Shown here: positions 35,451 through 50,756 of the stretch, piece by piece
Layout of the letters: every line of letters begins with the position of its first letter
How positions within the stretch are numbered: position 1 is the first letter of the stretch
From: Sphingobium sp. 66-54
GTDB taxonomy: Bacteria; Pseudomonadota; Alphaproteobacteria; Sphingomonadales; Sphingomonadaceae
Reading direction: 5' to 3'
Length of the DNA stretch: 64,000 nucleotides
Assembly: GCA_001899715.1 (NCBI GenBank)
Contig: MKWI01000003.1
Coordinates: 124,001-188,000 of the forward strand
Made by a program: the position numbers and the translations under genes
The notes under the pieces: model-generated
The model's input: the letters and a program-made list of their open reading frames with translations, nothing else
What the model was told of the DNA's origin: nothing
The model's database searches: none

Positions 35451-36130
35451 GTCCGGTCTCCAGGAGGCGCGACAAGGCACGCGCCGGGACGACGCACAGC
35501 CTGTCGCTGTTAGGGGGAGATCGCCCTGCATCGGAGGGAACGGCGGTATGCCATCTGGAATGGAACGCGCCGGCCTGCGTGCGACACCGGACGTGGACGC
35601 GGGCGAGGCGCACGTCCGGCTAGATGCGGGTCGTCAGACGCCCCGTGCCCGGAAGGATATGGTCATAGCGTGCCATGCCCAGCAGATGGGGTTTGGAAAT
35701 TGTTTTTCAAGCATAGCAGTCGTAAATTTGAAATCCGGCAATCCAACTCCAAAAAATCACTAAATCAGTCAGAACATATTTTCTCCGGATTACGGTCTTC
35801 ACGAAGCCGATTTCCCCTTCTTACCTTGCCGTCTCTCTCCAGAATTTCTTCCCGACCTCGCGTAATGTTGAACGCGACCCGCCGCCATTCCGATCTATTT
35901 CCTGTTGAGGTGCAAGTTCCACGCGCAGGCATCCGCCACGCGGTATCCAACAAAATCCTAATTTTCTATAGAATTATCAGTATCTTGAGCAAATGTTACA
36001 GAAATCGGTAACGGTGACATAACGGTGCGCTTTAGGGTCGGTGCGATTGCGGCTGGCGCGATGGCGACATAGGCCCCGCGGCGAGGGGAGGCGGTTCTTT
36101 CGTGCGTCTCCCGGCCAAAGGGAGATTTAC
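35451..36130. other. AT-rich regulatory region before a siderophore receptor
   Basis: No gene is supported in these 680 bases. From about 35690 the composition becomes distinctly AT-rich compared with the rest of the window. It contains a palindrome at 35964-35973 and candidate -10 sequences (for example TATAGAAT), consistent with the promoter of the TonB receptor at 36131. The earlier half is featureless. Confidence 0.5.
35964..35973. promoter_or_regulatory. Palindrome in the receptor promoter region
   Basis: TTCTATAGAA is a perfect 10-bp palindrome in the AT-rich region 158 bases before the receptor start. It could be part of an iron-responsive operator or a -10 element; no full Fur box is recognisable. 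Confidence 0.3.
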
Positions 36131-38302
36131 ATGCCGTCGATGACGTCCCGACTGACACTGTCGGTCCTTCTGCTCGCGCCGATCGCGGCCGTGCCCGCCT
36201 TCGCGCAGGCCGAGCCGAGCGACGGCTCGACCGCATCCGACACCATCCTGGTCACGGGGCAGCTCGAACGCGATTCGCTCACCACCGCCAACGCGACCGG
36301 CAGCCGGCTCGACCTGACGTTGCTGGAAACGCCGGCCAGCATCTCGGTGCTCACCGGCGAGTTGATCCGCGCGCGCGGCGACCAGTCGATCATCGACGCG
36401 CAGAGCCGCGCCGTCGGCATCACCAACGTCGGCAACCCCGGCAACGGCGGCACCGCGCTGGCCGCGCGCGGGTTCGCCGGTCAGGGCTCGGTGCTCCAGC
36501 TCATCGACGGCGTGCGCCTGTTCCCGGTGGCCGGCACCGTCACCTTCCCGACCGACCCATGGATGGCCGAGCGCATCGACATCCTCAACGGCCCCGCCTC
36601 GGTGCTCTATGGGCAGGGCGCGCTGGGCGCCGCCGTCAATGTCATCATGCGCCAGCCCAACAGCGAGCGCATGGAGACGGAGGGCGAGATCGGCTACGGC
36701 TCGCAAAACACCTTCCATGCCGCGGCCGGCGTAGGCGGCCCGCTGAGCGATCCGCTCGCGGTGCGCGTGGACGCCAGCTACCGCCGCTCGGACGGCTATG
36801 TGGATCGCGGCGATTCGCACAGCCTCGCCCTCTCCGGCACACTGCGCTGGACGCCGAGCGAGACGCTCACCTTCACGCTGCGCAACGATTATGGCGACAT
36901 CCACCCGACCAAATATTTCGGCACGCCCCTCATCGACGGCAAGCTGGATACGCGCATCCGCGAGCGCAACTACAATGTCGGCGATGCGCGGATGCGCTCG
37001 GAAGACAACCGCACCACCTTCCAGATCGACTGGAGCCCCAGCGAGGCGATCACGATCAGCAACCAGGTCTATCGCCTGACCAGCCACCGCCTGTGGCGTA
37101 ATCTGGAGACCTATTGCTGGATTGGCGCGGACGGCGATTGCCCCAACGGTTATAACGGCATGACGGGCACTCCCGGCGACATCTACCGCGCCGATAATTT
37201 CGGGATCGGCCATCACCAGACCCAATGGGGCGATCAGGGCACCATCACTCTCAGGACGCCGCTCGGCAGCGGCATCGACAACGCGCTGGTGGCCGGCTTC
37301 GACGTGAACGCGATCAAGCTGCGCTACGATCATGATTTCAACGGGGATTATCAGGAAGACTTCGTCAATCCGTTCGCCTTCGATCCCGGCATCTACCTGA
37401 ACTCGGTCGATATCACGCCGCAATACCGCACCCGCACGCGCGAATACGCCTTCTTTGCCGAGGATCGGCTCCAGCTTTCCGAGCAGGTCTCGCTGGTCGG
37501 CGGCATCCGCTATGAGAGCAACCGCGTCCGCCGCTGGACCATTGGCGCTACCGGCGACACGCTGGCCTTCGAAAAGCGGCTGCACAACACGACCTGGCGG
37601 ATCGGCGGCGTCTATCAGCCCACGCCCGACATCTCGCTCTATGCGCAATACACCACCGGCGTCGATCCGCTCGGCACGCTGACCACCTATTCCGGCGGGC
37701 AGGTCGCCTTCAGCCACGCAACCGGCAATCAGGTGGAGGTAGGCGCCAAGGCGCGCTTCCTGGATGGGCGCGGCACCGCAACCATCGCCGCCTATCGCCT
37801 CGTCAAGAACGGCCTGCTCTCGCAGAAAACGCCCGCCAGTCCGATCGAGCAGGTCGGCCAGCGCTCGGCCAAGGGCATCGAGGCGACCGTCTCGCTCGAT
37901 CTGCCGGGCGGCTTCGGTATCGACGCGAACGGTACCATTCTTGACGCCCGGTTCGATGATTTCATGTCCGGCGGCGCCAGCTACAACGGCAACGATCCGG
38001 CCGGCGTGGCCGAACGGACAGCCAATCTGTGGCTGCGCTGGGATGCGACCGCATCGCTCCAGGCGCGTGCCGGCCTGCGCTACGTCGGCCCACGCTTCTC
38101 GGACGATTCCAATACGTTCCGCGTGCCCGGCTATGCGACGGTGGATGCGACACTCTCCTACGCGCTGTCGAAAAACGTCGCGCTGGACGTGCATCTCTAC
38201 AATCTGTTCGACAAGGACTATGCCATCACCACCTACAATGACGAACAGTGGGTCCTCGGCCGGCCGCAATCCTTCGATGTCTCGCTGCGCGCGAGCTTCT
38301 GA
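36131..38302 (+). CDS. TonB-dependent siderophore receptor
   Basis: 723 residues from the ATG at 36131, which has GGGAG six bases upstream; the frame extends to 36041 without support. A signal peptide ends AVPAFAQ. A TonB box-like DTILVTG, a plug domain (ETPASISVLTGELI, IDILNGPASVLYGQGALGAAVN) and a 22-strand-type barrel follow, with a C-terminal aromatic residue (RASF). The plug resembles FhuE/FpvA-type ferric-siderophore receptors. The adjacent PepSY gene supports an iron role. The siderophore is unknown. Confidence 0.9.
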   Translation: MPSMTSRLTLSVLLLAPIAAVPAFAQAEPSDGSTASDTILVTGQLERDSLTTANATGSRLDLTLLETPASISVLTGELIRARGDQSIIDAQSRAVGITNVGNPGNGGTALAARGFAGQGSVLQLIDGVRLFPVAGTVTFPTDPWMAERIDILNGPASVLYGQGALGAAVNVIMRQPNSERMETEGEIGYGSQNTFHAAAGVGGPLSDPLAVRVDASYRRSDGYVDRGDSHSLALSGTLRWTPSETLTFTLRNDYGDIHPTKYFGTPLIDGKLDTRIRERNYNVGDARMRSEDNRTTFQIDWSPSEAITISNQVYRLTSHRLWRNLETYCWIGADGDCPNGYNGMTGTPGDIYRADNFGIGHHQTQWGDQGTITLRTPLGSGIDNALVAGFDVNAIKLRYDHDFNGDYQEDFVNPFAFDPGIYLNSVDITPQYRTRTREYAFFAEDRLQLSEQVSLVGGIRYESNRVRRWTIGATGDTLAFEKRLHNTTWRIGGVYQPTPDISLYAQYTTGVDPLGTLTTYSGGQVAFSHATGNQVEVGAKARFLDGRGTATIAAYRLVKNGLLSQKTPASPIEQVGQRSAKGIEATVSLDLPGGFGIDANGTILDARFDDFMSGGASYNGNDPAGVAERTANLWLRWDATASLQARAGLRYVGPRFSDDSNTFRVPGYATVDATLSYALSKNVALDVHLYNLFDKDYAITTYNDEQWVLGRPQSFDVSLRASF

Positions 38303-38339
38303 GGCGGGCGGTCGCGCCATGCTTATGGAGCGGAGCTGA

Positions 38340-39824
38340 ATGGCCAGCATCGCCGGCCGGACCAGAGCGCAGGCGCCGGGCAAGCTCGCCCGGCGGTGGC
38401 TCTATCTGATCCACCGCTGGATCGGGATCGCAAGCTGCATCCTGTTTGCAATGTGGTTCATCTCCGGGCTGGTGATGATCTACGTGCCCTACCCGTCGCT
38501 GACGCTGGCGGAGCGGCTCGCCGGCGCGGAGCCGATCGACTGGCGGCAGGTGGCCGAGCCTCCGCCGGCAGGCGTGGAAGGGCCGCCACAAACGCTGGAG
38601 CTTGAGATGCGCGACGGCGTCCCGGTTTGGCGCATGACCGACTGGGACGGCACCCGCCTCTCTCTCTCCGCCGCGCCCGGCACGACCATGGCGGAGGCGG
38701 ACGGCGACTACGCCGCACGCGTCGCGAGCCGGTTCGCGCAGGGAGCCAAAGTCTCCACAGTCGAGCCGCTGGAGCGCGACCAATGGACTGTCGCCGGGGG
38801 CTTCAACCGCCACCGTCCGCTCTGGAAAGTCTCGTTCGGAGATGAGGCCGGGACACAGCTCTACGTCTCCTCCACCACCGGCGCCGTCGTGCAGGATACG
38901 ACACGGAGCGAACGGTTCTGGAATTGGCTGGGCTCGGTGCCGCACTGGATCTACCCCACCGTGCTGCGCCAGAACAACGAGGCATGGCGGCAAGCGGTGC
39001 TCTGGCTCTCGGGCCCCGGCATCGCCGCGGCCGTGACCGGCATCTGGATCGGCATCCTGCGCACGCGCCTTCGCGAGCGGCGCTTCAAGGGCGGGCGCAT
39101 GACGCCGTATCACGGCTGGATGCTCTGGCATCACGTCGCGGGGCTCGCCGGCGGCTTCTTTCTGCTCGCGTGGATCTTCAGCGGCTGGCTGTCGGTCGAT
39201 CCCGGCCGGCTCTTCGCGTCCGCCGGGCCGGACGAGCAGGCAATGTACAGCTATTCCGCCGGCCGGCCGATGCCGCCGCTCGACCTCCAGCGACTGGGTT
39301 CGGTCGCCCAGGGGGCCCGGCTGGTCCGCTTTTCCGGCGAGGCCGGCCAGTGGCGCGTCTCGCTCTACGATGGCGCGGGCACCCGGCGCGTCCTTGCCCT
39401 TCCGGGGCTGGACCCGCCGCCGGACGCGCGGCGAGCCATCGAGCAGGCCGCGCGCGGGCTCGTCCCTGACGGGGCGCTCGTCCGCTCTGACTGGCTTACC
39501 CGGCAGGACGCTTATTATTACGGCGTCGCCGGTCCGCCGCGCCTGCCGGTGCTGCGCCTGCGCTTTGACGATCCGGCGGCGACCTGGCTCTACATCGACC
39601 CGCAGTCCGGCGAAATCGCCCGCAACATGACCCGGCGCGATCGCATCTACCGCTGGCTGTTCGATCTGCTCCACCGCTGGGATTTCAACGCGCTGAACAC
39701 CCACCGCCCGGCGCGCGACATCGTGCTGTGGGTCTTTTCGATCTTCGGCATCGTTACCTCGGTGAGCGGCATCTGGGTCGGCTGGAAACGCCTGACCCAC
39801 AAGCCACGCCAGCGCGCGACATAG
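38340..39824 (+). CDS. PepSY-associated transmembrane protein
   Basis: 494 residues with four membrane spans, at about residues 22-48, 219-241, 260-285 and 460-485. Periplasmic loops contain PepSY-like segments (QLYVSSTTGAVVQDTTRSERFWNWLG and TWLYIDPQSGEIARNMTRRDRIYRWLFDLLH). Conserved His residues in WLYLIHRWIGI, MLWHHVAG and FDLLHRWDF may bind haem or metal. Such proteins accompany siderophore receptors and are proposed to reduce or release iron. It starts 37 bases after the receptor stop, so it is likely in the same operon. Confidence 0.88.
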   Translation: MASIAGRTRAQAPGKLARRWLYLIHRWIGIASCILFAMWFISGLVMIYVPYPSLTLAERLAGAEPIDWRQVAEPPPAGVEGPPQTLELEMRDGVPVWRMTDWDGTRLSLSAAPGTTMAEADGDYAARVASRFAQGAKVSTVEPLERDQWTVAGGFNRHRPLWKVSFGDEAGTQLYVSSTTGAVVQDTTRSERFWNWLGSVPHWIYPTVLRQNNEAWRQAVLWLSGPGIAAAVTGIWIGILRTRLRERRFKGGRMTPYHGWMLWHHVAGLAGGFFLLAWIFSGWLSVDPGRLFASAGPDEQAMYSYSAGRPMPPLDLQRLGSVAQGARLVRFSGEAGQWRVSLYDGAGTRRVLALPGLDPPPDARRAIEQAARGLVPDGALVRSDWLTRQDAYYYGVAGPPRLPVLRLRFDDPAATWLYIDPQSGEIARNMTRRDRIYRWLFDLLHRWDFNALNTHRPARDIVLWVFSIFGIVTSVSGIWVGWKRLTHKPRQRAT

Positions 39825-41541: not shown

Positions 41542-42360
41542 TCAATCTCCTACCCCGAGAAACTCGACCTCACCCTCCTCGTTGATCGGGTTGCGATCGT
41601 TCTGCGCACAGACGAACTCGATCTGGTCGAAGCCGCGCTCGCGCTTGAATTTGTACACGGAATGCCACGGCGCGATGAGTGCCTCCGGGTCCTCGAATGT
41701 GTTCTCGACGATTAGCACATCCTTGTTCGCCGGATCGAGGTGGATGCGCTCGGTCAGCTTCACCTTGTCGCTGTAGGTGATGCCCCAGCGCCCCATCGTA
41801 CCGCCGTCGCGCAGGCCGATCGTGGTGACAACCAGCGTATCGCCCTCCCAATGGCCGATCGAGCTGCCATTATAGGTCGGGTCCGGATCCTCCGGCAGCG
41901 GGCGCCCATCCGTGAAGATGCGGCGCACCTGCATATAGGCTTCCTGGATCACGGTAACGCGACCGGGCGTGAACAGGAATTCGAGATTATAAGGCTGGGT
42001 CATGATGCCCGGCATCCCCGGCGGCTCGCACGCCGACGCCCGGCGCTCCACTTTGAGCAGCGCCTCCGGATCGCCGGTTTTGATGAGCGTCTGGATCTCA
42101 TCGTAATGCGCCTTGTACTTGCCCTTGAGCTGCGGAATTTCGGGCTTGGCGGCCTCTCCCATCATCGGGCTCCAGAGCCCACGCCAGTCGGGCAGCTTCT
42201 GCAGCGCGGTATAATCCACCTGCTCCGCCGAGGCCGGCCAGACCTTATCCGGCACCACATTCTGAGGCATCGGGTTCGATGCGGATTGCTGCGCGATGGA
42301 AGGTGCGGCGAGACAGACCGTCGCGAGCGCTACCAATGACGACGCGGCCCAAAACTTCAT
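41542..42360 (-). CDS. Secreted protein with YNG/WEGDTLVV motif (A')
   Basis: 272 residues from the ATG at 42360; the frame starts 13 codons earlier. A signal peptide ends APSIAQ. The mature protein has Cys111 in CEPPGMPGIM, then DPTYNGSSIGHWEGDTLVVTT (YNG at 163-165) and Cys251 near the C terminus. The gene at 43220 encodes the same three landmarks in the same order, so the two are paralogs; a disulfide between the two Cys is plausible. Similar motifs occur in uncharacterised secreted proteins of soil bacteria. Last gene of a tight four-gene operon. No catalytic function known to me. Confidence 0.8.
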   Translation of the reverse strand: MKFWAASSLVALATVCLAAPSIAQQSASNPMPQNVVPDKVWPASAEQVDYTALQKLPDWRGLWSPMMGEAAKPEIPQLKGKYKAHYDEIQTLIKTGDPEALLKVERRASACEPPGMPGIMTQPYNLEFLFTPGRVTVIQEAYMQVRRIFTDGRPLPEDPDPTYNGSSIGHWEGDTLVVTTIGLRDGGTMGRWGITYSDKVKLTERIHLDPANKDVLIVENTFEDPEALIAPWHSVYKFKRERGFDQIEFVCAQNDRNPINEEGEVEFLGVGD

Positions 42361-42395
42361 TCCAGCAGCCCTCCCCCTGTCGGCTCTCTTGCCTG

Positions 42396-42761
42396 TCACT
42401 TGTTTTCGAGCACCTTGCCATCCGGCAGGACGACCTTGACGAGAGAGCCGCCCGCCTTGCCGTTGACCAGAGGATGATAGGTCACAGTCACCTTGTCACC
42501 CGGTTTCAACGACGAACGCCGCCAACCCACACTCACAAGGTTGTTGGGGCTGGTCATCTCGATCGCCCAGTTGGTCGTGGCACCCTTGGCGTCGGCTACG
42601 TCGACATGCATCCAGGCGTGGGGGTTGGTCCACTTGAATTCCGTAACCGTCCCCTTCGCCGTCACATCCTTCTTCATGTCGAACATGGAGAAGCTGTGAT
42701 GGGCCGTCGCCGCCGCAGCAAGCGATGCCACGGCGAATGCTGCAAGCCATTTCATGCGCAT
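42396..42761 (-). CDS. Secreted DUF6152 family protein (B')
   Basis: 121 residues with a GAGGAG site. A 20-residue signal peptide ends in A-T-A, and the mature protein is predicted to begin His21-His22 (HHSFSMFD). The conserved WTNPHAW motif (44-50) and the TSPNNLVSVGWRRSSLKPGD segment are typical of DUF6152. A tandem paralog lies 12 bases upstream. Cleavage exactly before the His pair would leave an N-terminal His suited to copper binding; that is inference. Function of the family is undescribed as far as I know. Confidence 0.85.
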   Translation of the reverse strand: MRMKWLAAFAVASLAAAATAHHSFSMFDMKKDVTAKGTVTEFKWTNPHAWMHVDVADAKGATTNWAIEMTSPNNLVSVGWRRSSLKPGDKVTVTYHPLVNGKAGGSLVKVVLPDGKVLENK

Positions 42762-42773
42762 GATCGCATCTCC

Positions 42774-43196
42774 TCAGTCGGCCGTCGGCACGTTGATGGC
42801 CTTGCCATCCACTGCCCGCTCACCGCCCAGCATCTTGCCGTTGGGAAGCACGATGGTATTGAACAACCCGCCCTTCTTGCCGTTGCGCAACGGATTGATG
42901 GTGATCGTCACAGCGTCACCCGCTTTCAGGGTCGAGCGCCGCCAGCCCTGCCGCGTGAGATTGTTGGGGCTGTTGAGCTCGATCCCCCAGCGCTCCCTGG
43001 CGCCGCGCGCATTGGGTACGTCCAGCTCAATCCAGGCATGGGGATTGGTCCACTGGAATTCGACCACGGAGCCTTTCAGCGTTACCGTCTTGGTCTGATC
43101 GAACATGGCGAAGCTGTGATGGGCGCCGGCGGCTGCCGCAACCAGCACCGTCGCCAGGGCGCCACCGCGCAACATGGCCTTCCAATACATTCCCAT
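42774..43196 (-). CDS. Secreted DUF6152 family protein (B)
   Basis: 140 residues with AGAGGAG just upstream of the ATG. The signal peptide ends in A-G-A before His26-His27 (HHSFAMFD). It shares the WTNPHAW (49-55), LNSPNNLTRQGWRRSTLKAGD and VLPNGKML motifs with the following gene, and has an extra 20-residue C-terminal tail ending NVPTAD. It is predicted to be a small beta-rich periplasmic or secreted protein. Second gene of the operon. Confidence 0.85.
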   Translation of the reverse strand: MGMYWKAMLRGGALATVLVAAAAGAHHSFAMFDQTKTVTLKGSVVEFQWTNPHAWIELDVPNARGARERWGIELNSPNNLTRQGWRRSTLKAGDAVTITINPLRNGKKGGLFNTIVLPNGKMLGGERAVDGKAINVPTAD

Positions 43197-43219
43197 CCGC
43201 TCCTCTCGCGTTCTGTCTG

Positions 43220-44107
43220 CTATTCGCCGGACTCATCCAGCGCAGCCTGTCCCCGGTCGGTTCCAGGGATATTGGCGTTGCGCGCCTCGGTGCACTCCAC
43301 CTCGCCGATGTCGCTTTCCAGCACCCGGTCCCAGCGCTTCGTGTTGCGCCACTCGCCCTTCCACATCTTGGGATCTGTCATGATATATTCGATCTCCAGC
43401 GTGTTCCCGCCGTTGACCATCTTGATCCGCTCGACGATCTGGAAATCCTCGCTGATCGGGATGCCGACGTCGATCCAGTGATGGTCCGTCTCGAACCCCT
43501 TGGTCGTGACGACCAGCGTGTCGCCTTCCCACTTGCCGATGGACTCGCCATTATAGGTCGGCACGTAGATATCGGGATCGGTATGGGTGCGTCCGTCGAG
43601 ATAGATGGTGCGGAAGCTGTTGGTGAAGCCGGCGACCATATAGACCGCGGTGGGTAGCTGGACGAACATCACCGGCCAGACCCGCGTCATAATCATCGGC
43701 ATACCGGCCGGGTAGCATTGGCCGATGCTATCGCGATAATTCTCGCCGCGCGCCCGCGCTGCCGCCCCCTCGGTCAGAGCCTTCTGCCCTTCCGCATAGA
43801 ACTCCGGATAAGGCGGGCCGAACATGAATTTGTTGAAGCCCTCGCTCAGGTCGACGAACCAGGTTCCCGTCATGTCGAACGGCGCCTTGGGGCGCGGCTT
43901 GGCGAGGTTGGCAGGATCGAGCGCACCCGGAAGACCCGGATGCTTGTGCTGGAGCTGATCGAGTTCCTCGGCTGTCAGCCTGCGATCTCGGTCACGGGTT
44001 TGCGCCTGCACGGACGTGAGGGCGAACGCAGCGCATGCCATCGCCACGCAGAGGCGCTGCATCCTGCGCCCGCTCACAAGCCGCACCGGTCCGCGTGCCG
44101 CCTTCAT
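43220..44107 (-). CDS. Secreted protein with YNG/WEGDTLVV motif (A)
   Basis: 295 residues from the ATG at 44107, supported by AGGAG six bases upstream; an internal Met16 would give a more normal signal peptide (MQRLCVAMACAAFALTSVQAQ). The mature region has Cys131 in CYPAGMPMIM, YNGESIGKWEGDTLVVTT (185-202) and Cys272. It is a paralog of the gene at 41542. First gene of the operon, divergent from the TonB receptor at 44292 across a 184-base AT-rich gap. Confidence 0.8.
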   Translation of the reverse strand: MKAARGPVRLVSGRRMQRLCVAMACAAFALTSVQAQTRDRDRRLTAEELDQLQHKHPGLPGALDPANLAKPRPKAPFDMTGTWFVDLSEGFNKFMFGPPYPEFYAEGQKALTEGAAARARGENYRDSIGQCYPAGMPMIMTRVWPVMFVQLPTAVYMVAGFTNSFRTIYLDGRTHTDPDIYVPTYNGESIGKWEGDTLVVTTKGFETDHHWIDVGIPISEDFQIVERIKMVNGGNTLEIEYIMTDPKMWKGEWRNTKRWDRVLESDIGEVECTEARNANIPGTDRGQAALDESGE

Positions 44108-44291
44108 GCCAATCTCCTCTCCCCAGGATCTGACCGAACCCTATTCCAGCAAAGGGTTATATCGAATCAACAAATTGAGGAATCAATCATTAGTTTGATT
44201 CTGTCAATAATGTCTGATAGCAATTCTCCCGTTGCGGTGCTGGCCGCGACCCTCGGAGGCAATAGCCGATGGGAAAAACGGGGAGAGAATC
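44108..44291. promoter_or_regulatory. Divergent promoter region with several palindromes
   Basis: AT-rich gap between the secreted-protein operon and a TonB receptor. It contains ATTGA-N4-TCAAT (44174-44187) and TTGATTCTGTCAA (44195-44207). The latter is one base away from the TTGAC-N3-GTCAA palindrome found at three other promoters in this region. Likely a shared regulatory region. Confidence 0.5.
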
Positions 44292-47086: not shown

Positions 47087-47599
47087 TCAACCCGCCTCGT
47101 CGGCATCCGCGGCACCGGCGGCTCGTTCCCGGTCGAGCAGGATCTGCGCCTTCTGCTTGACCCGATCCAGCACCTCGGACACGCGGGCGATCTCATCGTC
47201 CGGTATATCGCCGACGAGGAACTCGTTGCGCTCGATGGCGAGGGCGACCATCCGCTCGTGCAGTGCCTTGCCTTCGTCCGACAGGGTGATGTCGATGGCC
47301 GGCCCGCCGGGGCGGCGGCGGCTACTGAGCAAGCCGCGCTCCTTCATGGCCTTGACCGCGCGGCTGACCTGCCCCCGGTCGAGATTGAGCAGGTCCGCCA
47401 GATCGTTGAGCGAGAGCGGCGCGTGATCGCCGACCTGCGACATGATCCGCCACTCGATGCCCGAGAGATCGAAGTTGCGCCGGTGCGCCAGCGTGCCGCT
47501 GCGCCGCAGCAGATCGAGCAGGCTGATGATGCGGAAGGTGAACACGCCGCGCATGGGCGCCGGAGTAGCGGTTTCCCGCGCGTCATCGTCGTTGGGCAT
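47087..47599 (-). CDS. MarR family transcriptional regulator
   Basis: 170 residues from the ATG at 47599; the frame begins 14 codons earlier. The winged helix runs through LSGIEWRIMSQVGDHAPLSLNDLADLLNLDRGQVSRAVKAMKERGLL and the wing SSRRRPGGPAIDITLSDEG. It is divergent from the SDR gene at 47755. A 15-bp palindrome (47652-47666) sits 53 bases upstream of its start, the usual place for MarR autoregulation. Related palindromes at 58266 and 60450 suggest that it also controls the GST and MFS genes; this is inference. Ligand probably an aromatic compound. Confidence 0.9.
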   Translation of the reverse strand: MPNDDDARETATPAPMRGVFTFRIISLLDLLRRSGTLAHRRNFDLSGIEWRIMSQVGDHAPLSLNDLADLLNLDRGQVSRAVKAMKERGLLSSRRRPGGPAIDITLSDEGKALHERMVALAIERNEFLVGDIPDDEIARVSEVLDRVKQKAQILLDRERAAGAADADEAG

Positions 47600-47651
47600 T
47601 GTCACGGACCGTTCCAAGGATGCTTCCCTTCGCAGGATCAAGCCAACCTAT

Positions 47652-47666: not shown

Positions 47667-47754
47667 TAATAGGGTTAATCAGCGTGGGAGCGCCTTATAA
47701 TGAGAATGCGCCACGTTGTCGCCCCTTCAGGAAAAAGGCGGCGGGAGAGGACAT

Positions 47755-48645
47755 ATGAAGGCTTTCGAAGGGCGGACCGCATTCGTGACCGGCGGCGCCA
47801 GCGGCATCGGCCTCGGCATGGCGAAAGCGTTCCTGGCGCGCGGCATGAATGTGGTGATGGCCGACCTGATGCGCGATCATCTCGACGAGGCCGCCGCGCT
47901 GCTGCACGGGCAGAACCGGCTCCACCAGATCCAGCTCGACGTGGCCGACCGCGCCGCCATGGCGGCCGCCGCTGAAGAGACGGCGCGGATTTTCGGCCCG
48001 GTGCACGTGCTCTGCAACAATGTCGGCGTGAGCCAGCGCAACCCGATCGACGAGGCCAGCTACGCGGACTGGGACTATGTGCTGGACGTCAATATCGGCG
48101 GCACGGTCAACGGGCTGGTGAGTTTCCTGCCGGGCATGAAGGCGCATGGGCAAGGCGGCCATGTCGTCAACACCTCGTCCATGGCCGGGATGATCCCGGT
48201 GCCCGCGTTCGCGGGCATCTACGCCACCTCCAAATTCGCCGTTCGCGGCATGACCGACGCGTTGCGGCTCGCGCTCGGCCCCTACCGCATCGGGGCATCG
48301 GTGCTCTGTCCCGGCATGACCCGCACCCGCGCGATGACGGCGGGCGACCGCTACCGGCAGGCCGCCACCACCGGCGAACAAACGCACGAGCACCGTGACA
48401 CCATCGCGCACGGCATGGACCCGGATGCGCTTGGCCGGCGCGTGGTCGAGGCCATCGAGCGCAACGAGCCGTATATCTTCCCGCACGGCGAATTCCGGGA
48501 GGAAGTCGCCGCCTATTTCGCGGAGATGCTGGACGCGTTCCCGACCGATTACGAGATCGACCCGTTCCGCAAGGCAGGCGAGGAGCGGCGCGCGCGGATG
48601 ACGGCGGAGGCGAGAGCCATCGCCCACGCCATCGACACGGAGTGA
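47755..48645 (+). CDS. SDR family oxidoreductase, LigD/LigN-like
   Basis: 296 residues from the ATG at 47755, which has GAGAGG upstream. NAD(P)-binding TGGASGIG is at 12-19, an NNVG motif at about 88-91, and the catalytic Ser-Tyr-Lys includes Tyr156 and Lys160 (YATSK). The start MKAFEGRTAFVTGGASG, the YADWDYVLDVNIGGTVNG segment and the late PYIFPHGEFREEVAAYF motif recall the C-alpha dehydrogenases LigD/LigL/LigN of sphingomonad lignin-ether metabolism. It may oxidise a benzylic or other secondary alcohol; the substrate is not proven. First gene of a three-gene unit. Confidence 0.88.
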   Translation: MKAFEGRTAFVTGGASGIGLGMAKAFLARGMNVVMADLMRDHLDEAAALLHGQNRLHQIQLDVADRAAMAAAAEETARIFGPVHVLCNNVGVSQRNPIDEASYADWDYVLDVNIGGTVNGLVSFLPGMKAHGQGGHVVNTSSMAGMIPVPAFAGIYATSKFAVRGMTDALRLALGPYRIGASVLCPGMTRTRAMTAGDRYRQAATTGEQTHEHRDTIAHGMDPDALGRRVVEAIERNEPYIFPHGEFREEVAAYFAEMLDAFPTDYEIDPFRKAGEERRARMTAEARAIAHAIDTE

Positions 48646-48676
48646 ACCGACGGACTTTCAGGTGAAGGAGGGGGAC

Positions 48677-49753
48677 TTGAGGAAGCAGCTATTCGGTCTG
48701 ACGATGTCGGCTCTGGGAGCAACTCTGGGCCTCGCCATGGCCCTCGCGCCCGCTGCGGCACCAGCGCAGCAGCCGAGCGCAACGGCGGCGGCCAAGCCCT
48801 GGTATAAGCAACCCTTCGACCCCAGGCGGGTGCAGCCATGCGACCGCGCCTGTCTGGTCGACTTCGGCACCCAATTCCTGCGCGCGATGGAGCGCAAGAC
48901 CCCCACCGCCCTGCCACTGGCGCAGGAGGTGTTCGTCACCGAGAATACCGGTCATATGGCGCTGGGCGAAGGCGTGCTGTGGCGCGCGGACATCGAGCAT
49001 ACCGGCTACCGCATCGACGTGGCCGATCCGCTGCTCGGCGAACTGGTCATGCAGCTGGTCTATATGGTCGAGGGCAAGCCGGCGATGGTCGCCATCCGCC
49101 TCAAGATCGACCGGCGGATGATTACCGAGGTGGAGCAGCTCATCGACCGCAACGTCGCTCCGCAAGCGATGGAACTGCTCGCCAGGCCGCGCCCGACCCT
49201 GCTGGCGGACGTGCCGGCGGCCCAGCGCGATTCGCGGGAGATGCTGAACTATGTCGCCCACTCCTATTTCGATGCGCTGACCGGCGAGGACGGCCGCATC
49301 GCCGCCTTCGCGCCGGACTGCGTGCGCTACGAGCAGGGCTACCAGACGGTGGCCAACAAGACGCCCGGCCGCGCCTCCCCTTCCCCGCAATTGCCCGACA
49401 CATCGACCGAGATGGGCCGCATCTTCTCGCGGCTCAGCACCATGACCTGCGAGGAGCAGGTGAGCACCGGCATCTTCGTAGGCATGAAGAAGATCTGGCC
49501 GCGTCGCATGGTGATCGACGAGCAGAAGGGGCTGGTGGCGGTGCTGCCGCTGTTCGTGCATGACGGCACCAAGCGGCCCGCCAAGCCCGGCAGCATCGGC
49601 GCGGACCGGCCGGGCATCGCCATGGTGCTCAACCTCGTGACGGTGGAAACGTTCGGCATTCGCGGCGGGCAAATCCACGAGGTGGAGGCGTTCCCGTTCG
49701 TCACCCTGCCCTATGGACTGGGCGATGGCTGGACACCCGCGACGGGGCGCTGA
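48677..49753 (+). CDS. Secreted protein of the PCxRxC family (SnoaL-like), TTG start
   Basis: 358 residues if begun at the TTG at 48677, five bases after AAGGAGG; a GTG at 48662 would add five residues. A signal peptide ends APAQQ. The mature part has PCDRACLVDFGTQFLRAM, PLAQEVFVTENTGHMALGEG, YRIDVADP and later a second repeat-like region. The gene at 51635 encodes a paralog. The pattern resembles uncharacterised SnoaL/NTF2-like secreted proteins (possibly DUF8021). It lies between two SDR genes on the same strand. Function unknown. Confidence 0.75.
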   Translation: MRKQLFGLTMSALGATLGLAMALAPAAAPAQQPSATAAAKPWYKQPFDPRRVQPCDRACLVDFGTQFLRAMERKTPTALPLAQEVFVTENTGHMALGEGVLWRADIEHTGYRIDVADPLLGELVMQLVYMVEGKPAMVAIRLKIDRRMITEVEQLIDRNVAPQAMELLARPRPTLLADVPAAQRDSREMLNYVAHSYFDALTGEDGRIAAFAPDCVRYEQGYQTVANKTPGRASPSPQLPDTSTEMGRIFSRLSTMTCEEQVSTGIFVGMKKIWPRRMVIDEQKGLVAVLPLFVHDGTKRPAKPGSIGADRPGIAMVLNLVTVETFGIRGGQIHEVEAFPFVTLPYGLGDGWTPATGR

Positions 49754-49844
49754 GGGACTGGAGGCGAGTCAGCCTCCAACCTCCCATTCGTGTCGAGCGG
49801 CAAGGGCGGGACGTGTGCCCATACGGAAAGGAATGAGACGAGCC

Positions 49845-50756
49845 ATGAAGGATCTCACCGGCAAGACCGCCTTCGTCACCGGCGGGGCGAGCGGCATCGG
49901 CCTCGGCATGGCGCGGGTGTTCGCGCGGGCGGGCATGAACGTGATCGTCGCCGACCTGCGCCGCGACCATCTCGACGAGGCAGAGGCCGTGCTGCGGGCG
50001 GACGGCGTGAGCGCGCGCGTGCGCCTGATGCAGCTCGACGTGACCGACCGCACGGCCTATGCGGCAGCGGCCGACGAAGCCGAGCGGGCGTTCGGCAAGG
50101 TCCATCTGCTGTGCAACAATGCCGGCATCGGCCTCGCCCGCAGCATCGGGCAGGCCAGCTATGCGGACTGGGACTGGGCGGTCGATATCAACCTCAACGC
50201 CATCTTCACCGGCGTGCATCTGTTCCTGCCGCGCATCCGCCGGCATGGCGAGGGCGGCCATATCGTCAACACCGCCTCCATGGCCGGCATCTTGCAATAT
50301 AGCGGCGCCGGCATCTACGTAACGACCAAGTTCGCGGTGGTCGGCTTCTCCGAGGCGCTGCGCGCCGAGCTGGCGCCGGAAGGCATCGGCGTCTCGGCCT
50401 TCTGCCCCGGCGGGGTGCGCAGCAATATCCGCGACTATGAGAAAACCCGGCCAGAACGCTTCGCGGTGACGCAGGAGGGGGGCACGGCCGCGCCGGGCCC
50501 GGGCTTCTCGTTCAACGAGGCGGATCGCGCGCGCCTCGCCTCGCTCACCGCTTCGCCCGAGGAGGCCGGCGAGCTGGTGTTGCAGGGTATCCGCGACAAC
50601 GCGCTCTATATCTTCACCGCGCCGGAGTTCCGCCCCGGCATCGAGGAACGCTTCGCGGCAATCCAGCGCGCCATCGGCCATGACGAGGCGCGCGAACAGG
50701 CTGCGCTGGACCTGATCCCCAATCTGGTGGGCAGCCCGATCTATCGCGAGGCGTGA
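49845..50756 (+). CDS. SDR family oxidoreductase, LigD/LigN-like
   Basis: 303 residues from the ATG at 49845 (MKDLTGKTAFVTGGASG); an ATG four codons earlier at 49833 is possible. Catalytic Tyr158 and Lys162 lie in YVTTK. The protein is paralogous to the one at 47755: the cofactor motif, DHLDEAEAVL, ASYADWDWAVDINL and the ALYIFTAPEFRPGIEERF tail all match. The tail is even closer to LigD-type C-alpha dehydrogenases. Probably oxidises an alcohol intermediate in the same pathway. Confidence 0.88.
   Translation: MKDLTGKTAFVTGGASGIGLGMARVFARAGMNVIVADLRRDHLDEAEAVLRADGVSARVRLMQLDVTDRTAYAAAADEAERAFGKVHLLCNNAGIGLARSIGQASYADWDWAVDINLNAIFTGVHLFLPRIRRHGEGGHIVNTASMAGILQYSGAGIYVTTKFAVVGFSEALRAELAPEGIGVSAFCPGGVRSNIRDYEKTRPERFAVTQEGGTAAPGPGFSFNEADRARLASLTASPEEAGELVLQGIRDNALYIFTAPEFRPGIEERFAAIQRAIGHDEAREQAALDLIPNLVGSPIYREA

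Follow-up and report, generated by a model that had tools for sequence, protein, structure and literature searches.

Why should four adjacent genes, all of them for exported proteins, be kept in the mirror order A-B-B'-A', and what could such a set of proteins do together outside the inner membrane? The question is raised by a stretch of 64,000 nucleotides from Sphingobium sp. 66-54 (contig MKWI01000003.1, positions 124,001 to 188,000; hereafter the window), in which two members of DUF6152 (PF19649), B and B', are flanked by two proteins of another family, A and A', with the four open reading frames (ORFs) on the minus strand (Table 1). Sequence comparisons indicate that the four genes make up an old cassette of fixed membership, and our preferred reading, to which we assign a probability of roughly 0.4, is that it specifies a periplasmic module for a metal, probably copper, and a lipophilic ligand that A and A' would present to a metal centre on B and B'.

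Conservation and age of the four-gene set

The layout described in an earlier note, which was made from the sequence alone, holds in its particulars. The four ORFs were confirmed in the A-B-B'-A' order, each with a Sec-like N-terminal stretch (by eye), and the gaps between them, given as 12-35 bases, measure 23 bp between A and B, 12 bp between the two B genes and 35 bp between B' and the ATG of A' (42360); if A' starts at the in-frame GTG at 42399, it overlaps B' by 4 bp. B and B' match PF19649 with 135 bits (E 1e-39) and 128.8 bits (E 8.5e-38), far above the gathering cut-off of 27, and are 61% identical across 98 aa. A and A' are 35% identical across 160 aa and carry the motifs reported for them, namely CYPAGMPMIM and CEPPGMPGIM, YNGESIGKWEGDTLVV and YNGSSIGHWEGDTLVV, and a late cysteine. 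The sequences nearest to this cassette are Sphingomonas and Sphingobium records.

We assembled 182 DUF6152 ORFs from the window, 13 further stretches of the same genome, 16 stretches of relatives and 80 loci found by searching with six DUF6152 proteins of the genome (up to 10 kb either side), and an A gene lies within 500 bp of 171 of them. The eleven B genes without such a neighbour (by eye) are at loci L050, L094, L098, L111 (two), L122 (two), L133, L178, L132 and L135, and in the last two an A gene sits slightly past 500 bp from one B each. Within the 4.0 Mb source genome the linkage is far above chance: of its 12 DUF6152 genes, 11 lie no more than 500 bp from an A gene, the one at L050 on contig C16 being the odd one out, and there are 20 A-family ORFs in the fetched stretches, the whole-genome A searches giving 18 and 21 match rows. 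In G207, a Bryobacterales metagenome-assembled genome (MAG) of the Acidobacteriota reached through L155, A is within reach of 24 of the 28 DUF6152 genes in a sample of 20 stretches chosen among its higher-ranking DUF6152 matches. Among 200 genomes of the phylum, DUF6152 is present in 17 and A in at least five (a lower bound, with at most 14 candidates scored per genome), all five belonging to the 17; they are five of the six genomes whose best DUF6152 match exceeds 80 bits, the sixth (G010) being without A, and in the 11 genomes with weak, divergent DUF6152 only, A was not found at E ≤ 1e-8. Rare co-occurrence, which the earlier note had put forward as the outcome that would tell against a two-component system, is thus not what these samples show. 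A different arrangement is seen at L048 (12320-15580), where three tandem, longer A-family genes stand without B genes of their own; the L048 cluster also has three pyrroloquinoline quinone (PQQ) alcohol dehydrogenases, a pair of DUF6644 genes and one B-A pair.

The earlier note spoke of the mirror order together with duplication. A recent local duplication as the origin of that order is rejected on a tree of the 85 A proteins that flank B pairs (quick method, LG+G4). The tree separates A (or A') sequences into one clade of 45 rows and another of 40, both with 100% support in the Shimodaira-Hasegawa-like approximate likelihood ratio test (SH-aLRT) and both spanning phyla, and the branches between them are 1.67 and 1.74 changes per column long. 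Where a cassette is on a single strand, its 5' gene belongs to the A clade and the 3' gene to the A' clade, the exceptions being the 3' genes of L099 and L132, loci without a 5' A, which fall in the A clade. A flipped arrangement, A'(-) B(+) B(+) A(-), is seen in Acidobacteriota and in records from Proteobacteria, largely Gammaproteobacteria, and accounts for 10 of 35 complete four-gene loci (by eye). The left gene is A' in 12 of 12 flipped cassettes and the right gene A in 12 of 12, which matches the prior expectation for a B pair inverted between fixed A flanks. The flipped order follows no phylum rule: the gammaproteobacterial locus L091 has the same-strand form, and other orders are seen at several loci of Bryobacterales. 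B-A-A-B is found at the Bryobacterales loci L154, L163 and L164, and most B genes stand in non-mirror arrangements. That the set is kept although the strands differ argues for selection on the set, beyond one shared transcript.

An old split between B and B' is not shown throughout the set: in a tree of B proteins, built on few columns, first and second B genes are mostly apart in Proteobacteria and together in Acidobacteriota. The four proteins had also been thought to work as two heterotypic pairs, A with B and A' with B'. Partial distance correlations over 35 cassettes, weak evidence drawn from one species tree, do not bear this out: the values are 0.56 for B:B', 0.53 for A:A' and 0.49 for A:B', whereas A:B reaches 0.17, A':B' 0.00 and A':B -0.04. 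Co-evolution therefore lends no support to that pairing.

Histidines of B and the predicted barrel of A

The B family suggests what the set may do. Three features go beyond the earlier note: the His-His start of mature B, the predicted fold of A, and DUF6644. In 181 of the 182 DUF6152 proteins (175 are distinct, the genomes of L165, L166 and L167 being already represented by L123 and L112; MAGs are numerous among the genomes) two histidines follow right after the signal peptide, the remaining protein beginning at a contig end. The predicted mature B' starts HHSFSMFD, preceded by ATA. In 173 the positions -3 and -1 are compatible with a signal-peptidase site of AxA type (by motif) before His-His, and the other eight, all second B genes, have valine at -1. 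In these eight (L091, L099, L101, L102, L106, L129, L132 and L136) A/G-x-V precedes His-His, and in seven an alternative site two residues upstream (by eye) would leave X-Val-His-His, which we take to be an ATCUN-type (amino-terminal copper- and nickel-binding) copper pattern, unlike the N-terminal-His site. A naive cleavage-site picker placed 115 of the 182 B proteins and left 67, and 82 of those placed have His at +1; among the 192 A proteins it found a site in 133, and His is absent from the 11 listed +1 residues, which cover 128. The later N-P-H histidine (His48 in B') is kept in all 182 B proteins and a glutamate in 179. In G207 the 28 sampled B proteins all start HH[SAG] behind a signal-like stretch, and the divergent DUF6152 proteins of A-less loci in other proteobacteria (L229-L242) retain AxA followed by HHG, and (N/G)-P-H, in nearly all cases, those of L236 and L239 having an unclear start (ORF extensions).

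Because His-His stands at the cleavage site together with a distant conserved His, DUF6152 is a candidate N-terminal-histidine metalloprotein, and we think it quite likely that B binds a metal through its N-terminus. Precedent makes this step credible: YcnI, which had drawn suspicion through the same N-terminal-His signature, proved to bind one Cu(II) (PMC8424229), and there are N-terminal-histidine families with affinity for Ni(II) and further metals (PMC12537917). AlphaFold2 predicts mature B, from 110 aligned sequences, as a confident small beta barrel (predicted local distance difference test score, pLDDT, 87; predicted template modelling score, pTM, 0.78). Its Foldseek neighbours in the PDB are oligonucleotide/oligosaccharide-binding (OB) folds of the SSB (single-stranded DNA-binding protein) and PriB type, with no match at E ≤ 0.001; CcmE, an OB-fold heme chaperone, is a weak lead at rank 50 (E 0.025), and CopC is not among the fold matches listed.

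The A family has few recognizable relatives. Neither A nor A' has a Pfam or NCBIfam match at E ≤ 1, the 20 A-family proteins of the genome give two weak single-member Pfam matches only (E 0.015 and 0.059), and a PDB sequence search with A and B found no convincing relative (best E 0.43 and 0.037, judged chance). A plasmid search found eight records with a relative of A', the best place of each being a hypothetical protein or having no listed gene. Structure prediction and fold search give A' as a calycin, an up-and-down barrel of the fatty-acid-binding type with a helical lid, and A presumably shares this fold by homology. Both the early and the late cysteine are present in 179 of 192 A proteins, neither in eight and the early one alone in five; in A' the two probably form a disulfide. 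It is reasonably likely that A binds a lipophilic ligand.

These fold searches, which yield generic OB and calycin folds only, are also what would be expected if B carried no metal, HHS and N-P-H being structural and A plus B forming a lipid- or polymer-handling complex. We regard this as improbable, for the three histidines, two of them at the cleavage site, are conserved in 181 of 182 proteins and retained in the divergent A-less members; a purely structural role would not call for a histidine exactly at +1.

Receptor, possible membrane partner and proposed mechanism

The gap between A and the divergent TonB-dependent receptor is AT-rich, as had been observed: a 120-bp stretch within it (44120-44239) has 41.7% G+C, against 66.6% for the window, and is at rank 4 of 3194 stretches. 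The suggested link of the receptor to the cassette is upheld where B genes are paired: 17 of 46 B-pair loci have a receptor no further than 1.5 kb from an A/B gene, as do 3 of 63 others, and L089, one of these three, is actually a cassette. The TonB model used in this count was built from genes adjoining the loci themselves and overlooks receptors of divergent sequence. In 16 of the 17 the receptor adjoins the 5' A, either divergently or upstream in the same direction.

In the module that we propose, a lipophilic molecule would be delivered through the neighbouring TonB receptor, and the fatty-acid-binding-type barrels A and A' would hold and present it in the periplasm. B and B', as OB-fold proteins that start with His-His after removal of the signal peptide, would hold one metal ion, most likely copper, in a histidine-brace-type site made up of the free N-terminus, His1, the invariant His28 and perhaps Glu48. 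This metal centre may act on the ligand held by A or take electrons from it, and a CopD-like DUF6644 protein, where present, would be the inner-membrane partner. Computation shows the linkage, the histidines kept next to the cleavage site, the predicted folds and the association of A-less B with DUF6644; the binding and identity of the metal, the binding of the ligand, the contact between A and B and the chemistry of the module are what we infer, and joint work of A and B on the same ligand is a tentative proposal. More speculative than any of these, and with the odds strongly against it, is an extension in which the many DUF6152 proteins would be copper enzymes with an OB-fold and a histidine brace, to which the A barrels present substrates; the whole would serve a TonB-fed periplasmic oxidation of lipophilic compounds, with a copy number that in some Acidobacteriota of soil exceeds 50. 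DUF6152 matches number 51 in G202 (reached through L163) and 57 in G207, both Bryobacterales MAGs with extreme paralog expansion, which argues for many substrates over general metal supply.

The membrane protein pulls the other way. DUF6644 (PF20349) is by sequence a small integral membrane protein, and its link to CopD points to metal supply, opposite to copy number; metal acquisition is therefore kept as a serious rival. In that scheme the receptor would import a metal-metallophore complex, A would catch the metallophore, B would take the metal through its N-terminal histidine and DUF6644 would carry it across the inner membrane, a route drawn in analogy to CopC-CopD and anglerase-HupE; the model for A would be siderocalin, a barrel that catches a metallophore.

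Two copies of DUF6644 are found in each of 27 of the 130 scanned A/B loci (at most 26 distinct loci, L155 and L215 being one contig), and three of the four DUF6644 pairs of the source genome are within 5 kb of an A/B gene. DUF6644 is absent from the window; in the closest relatives (L085, L086, L087 and L089) both copies come after the TonB receptor. A same-strand DUF6644-like gene accompanies DUF6152 in 12 of the 14 A-less loci, in nine of them 0-18 bp downstream; at L239 the DUF6644-like ORF is upstream and the DUF6152 match weak. The DUF6644 model was seeded with 7 of these 14 loci; an independent BLAST cluster joins 11 of the 14, and of ten loci scanned with the Pfam model eight give a match at E ≤ 0.01, three of them above its cut-off. 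B with DUF6644 is wider in range than B with A, so that A may be a later addition. The weak matches of the 27 DUF6644 proteins are to DUF2214 (8), CopD (4; E ≤ 0.01), SirB (2) and UPF0093 (1). The CopD model (PF05425) gives one match to the DUF6644 proteins of the source genome, with E 5e-5, below cut-off; hhalign gives 76% for DUF6644 against CopD-like proteins with four transmembrane segments and 0.9%, no match, against the longer profile of full CopD-type proteins.

Metal acquisition would account for the B-DUF6644 pairs at A-less loci, the weak likeness of DUF6644 to CopD, DUF2214 and SirB, and the receptor next to the cassette, and published N-terminal-His families have been proposed as metal carriers (PMC12537917). 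We nevertheless think it less likely than the module proposed above: 51 and 57 DUF6152 matches in single genomes exceed the needs of uptake, 103 of the 130 A/B loci have no DUF6644, and PQQ alcohol dehydrogenases, short-chain dehydrogenases/reductases (SDRs), a glutathione S-transferase and MarR regulators recur nearby.

Within 8 kb at 109 loci the recurrent neighbours are TonB receptors (31), PQQ alcohol dehydrogenases (16), SnoaL-type proteins (10), MarR regulators (10) and cytochrome b561-YceI proteins (7), their Pfam identities resting on one representative per cluster. The dehydrogenases raise a further possibility, that B is a copper carrier of electrons between PQQ-dependent alcohol dehydrogenases and DUF6644, with A bringing lipophilic alcohols or aldehydes. 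Besides the 16 loci with such relatives near A/B genes, three of the ten PQQ alcohol dehydrogenase genes of the source genome are in one A/B/DUF6644 cluster (contig C14), and in the window the gene of a PQQ glucose/sorbosone-type dehydrogenase converges on A' and stops 166 bp short of it. At the other 93 loci, however, the 8-kb surroundings lack PQQ dehydrogenases of the cluster in question, and the representative that was scanned has a fused cytochrome c. PQQ alcohol dehydrogenases normally use cytochrome c, and we know of no OB-fold copper electron carriers of such a kind; we thus give this idea little credence, and return to the module of metal and lipophilic ligand in the comparison below.

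Elsewhere in the window, a secreted-looking protein of 363 aa without a Pfam or NCBIfam family (48662-49753) lies between SDR genes at 47716-48645 and 49713-50756 and close to a MarR regulator (47087-47641). At 36041-39824 another TonB receptor is followed by a PepSY transmembrane protein, a pair that is presumably iron-uptake-like.

Table 1. Coordinates in the window of the cassette, of residues discussed in the text and of the adjoining receptor.
Feature	Position	Strand	Description and basis
A	43220..44107	-	Secreted, 295 aa, A clade, 5' gene of cassette; ORF and tree
B	42774..43196	-	DUF6152 (PF19649), candidate N-terminal-histidine metalloprotein, predicted OB-fold
B'	42396..42761	-	Second DUF6152 (PF19649)
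A'	41542..42360 (ATG 42360, or GTG 42399)	-	Secreted, A' clade, 3' gene of cassette
B His26-His27	codons 43116..43121	-	Predicted mature N-terminus (H1-H2), directly after AGA; sequence, conservation
B His53	codon 43038..43040	-	His of N-P-H (mature His28); His in 182/182
A' early conserved Cys	codon 42028..42030	-	Cys124 counted from GTG; Cys conservation
A' late Cys	codon 41608-41610	-	Cys conservation
AT-rich divergent intergenic region	44108..44261	.	A to TonB receptor; probable shared promoter region
TonB-dependent receptor	44262 (or 44232)..46760	+	PF00593, PF07715; Pfam; divergent from A

Relation to known systems

A search of the open-licence literature, with subscription papers and preprints outside it, found no paper on DUF6152 (PF19649) or DUF6644 (PF20349), and the word DUF6152 is absent from what was searched, the signal-strapping paper included. 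N-terminal-histidine metalloproteins are already known; what is new, as far as the searches show, is DUF6152 as a candidate, its predicted OB-fold, its partnership with a predicted calycin and the cassette in its conserved form. A testable role is thereby offered for two families that had no described function and that some bacteria carry by the tens in a single genome, for which the A-less loci with DUF6152 and a DUF6644-like gene offer a simpler system for B. If B binds copper or nickel, the N-terminal-histidine metalloproteins acquire an OB-fold branch, and if A presents a ligand, the result would be a partnership of a metal protein with a lipocalin-type one; we know of no other system of that type.

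The predicted A' resembles fatty-acid-binding proteins, lipocalins and other calycins in its barrel and in the helical lid that follows strand 1 and precedes the next one. It differs from them in having no Pfam match above cut-off and no PDB sequence relative, in being exported, and in its bigger helical part, which a likely disulfide would join to the C-terminus. On the side of B, CusF, a small periplasmic copper chaperone, has the OB-fold in common; it binds through internal Met, His and Trp without an N-terminal His, and is not among the fold matches listed for B. Copper import by CopC-CopD and YcnI-YcnJ is alike in setting a periplasmic N-terminal-His protein beside a membrane protein, to which DUF6644 corresponds through its weak CopD similarity; it is unlike in that B is a DUF6152 protein, that longer CopD proteins are unmatched by DUF6644 and that the window is without DUF6644.

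The closest comparison is with the N-terminal-histidine and histidine-brace proteins (CopC, YcnI/DUF1775, DUF4198, DUF6702, anglerases and lytic polysaccharide monooxygenases), in which, as in B, the signal peptide ends before a His and, YcnI excepted, a distant second His is conserved. The partner genes are also alike, with TonB receptors for DUF4198 and membrane permeases for CopC-CopD and Ang-HupE. The predicted OB-fold of B stands against the cupredoxin fold of YcnI and the beta-sandwich described for DUF6702 and the anglerases. The method of PMC12537917 discarded sequences with a second ligand at position 2, and B has a His there, yet has the distant N-P-H as well. This position-2 His, a predicted calycin partner and up to 57 copies per genome also set B apart from the other N-terminal-histidine families.

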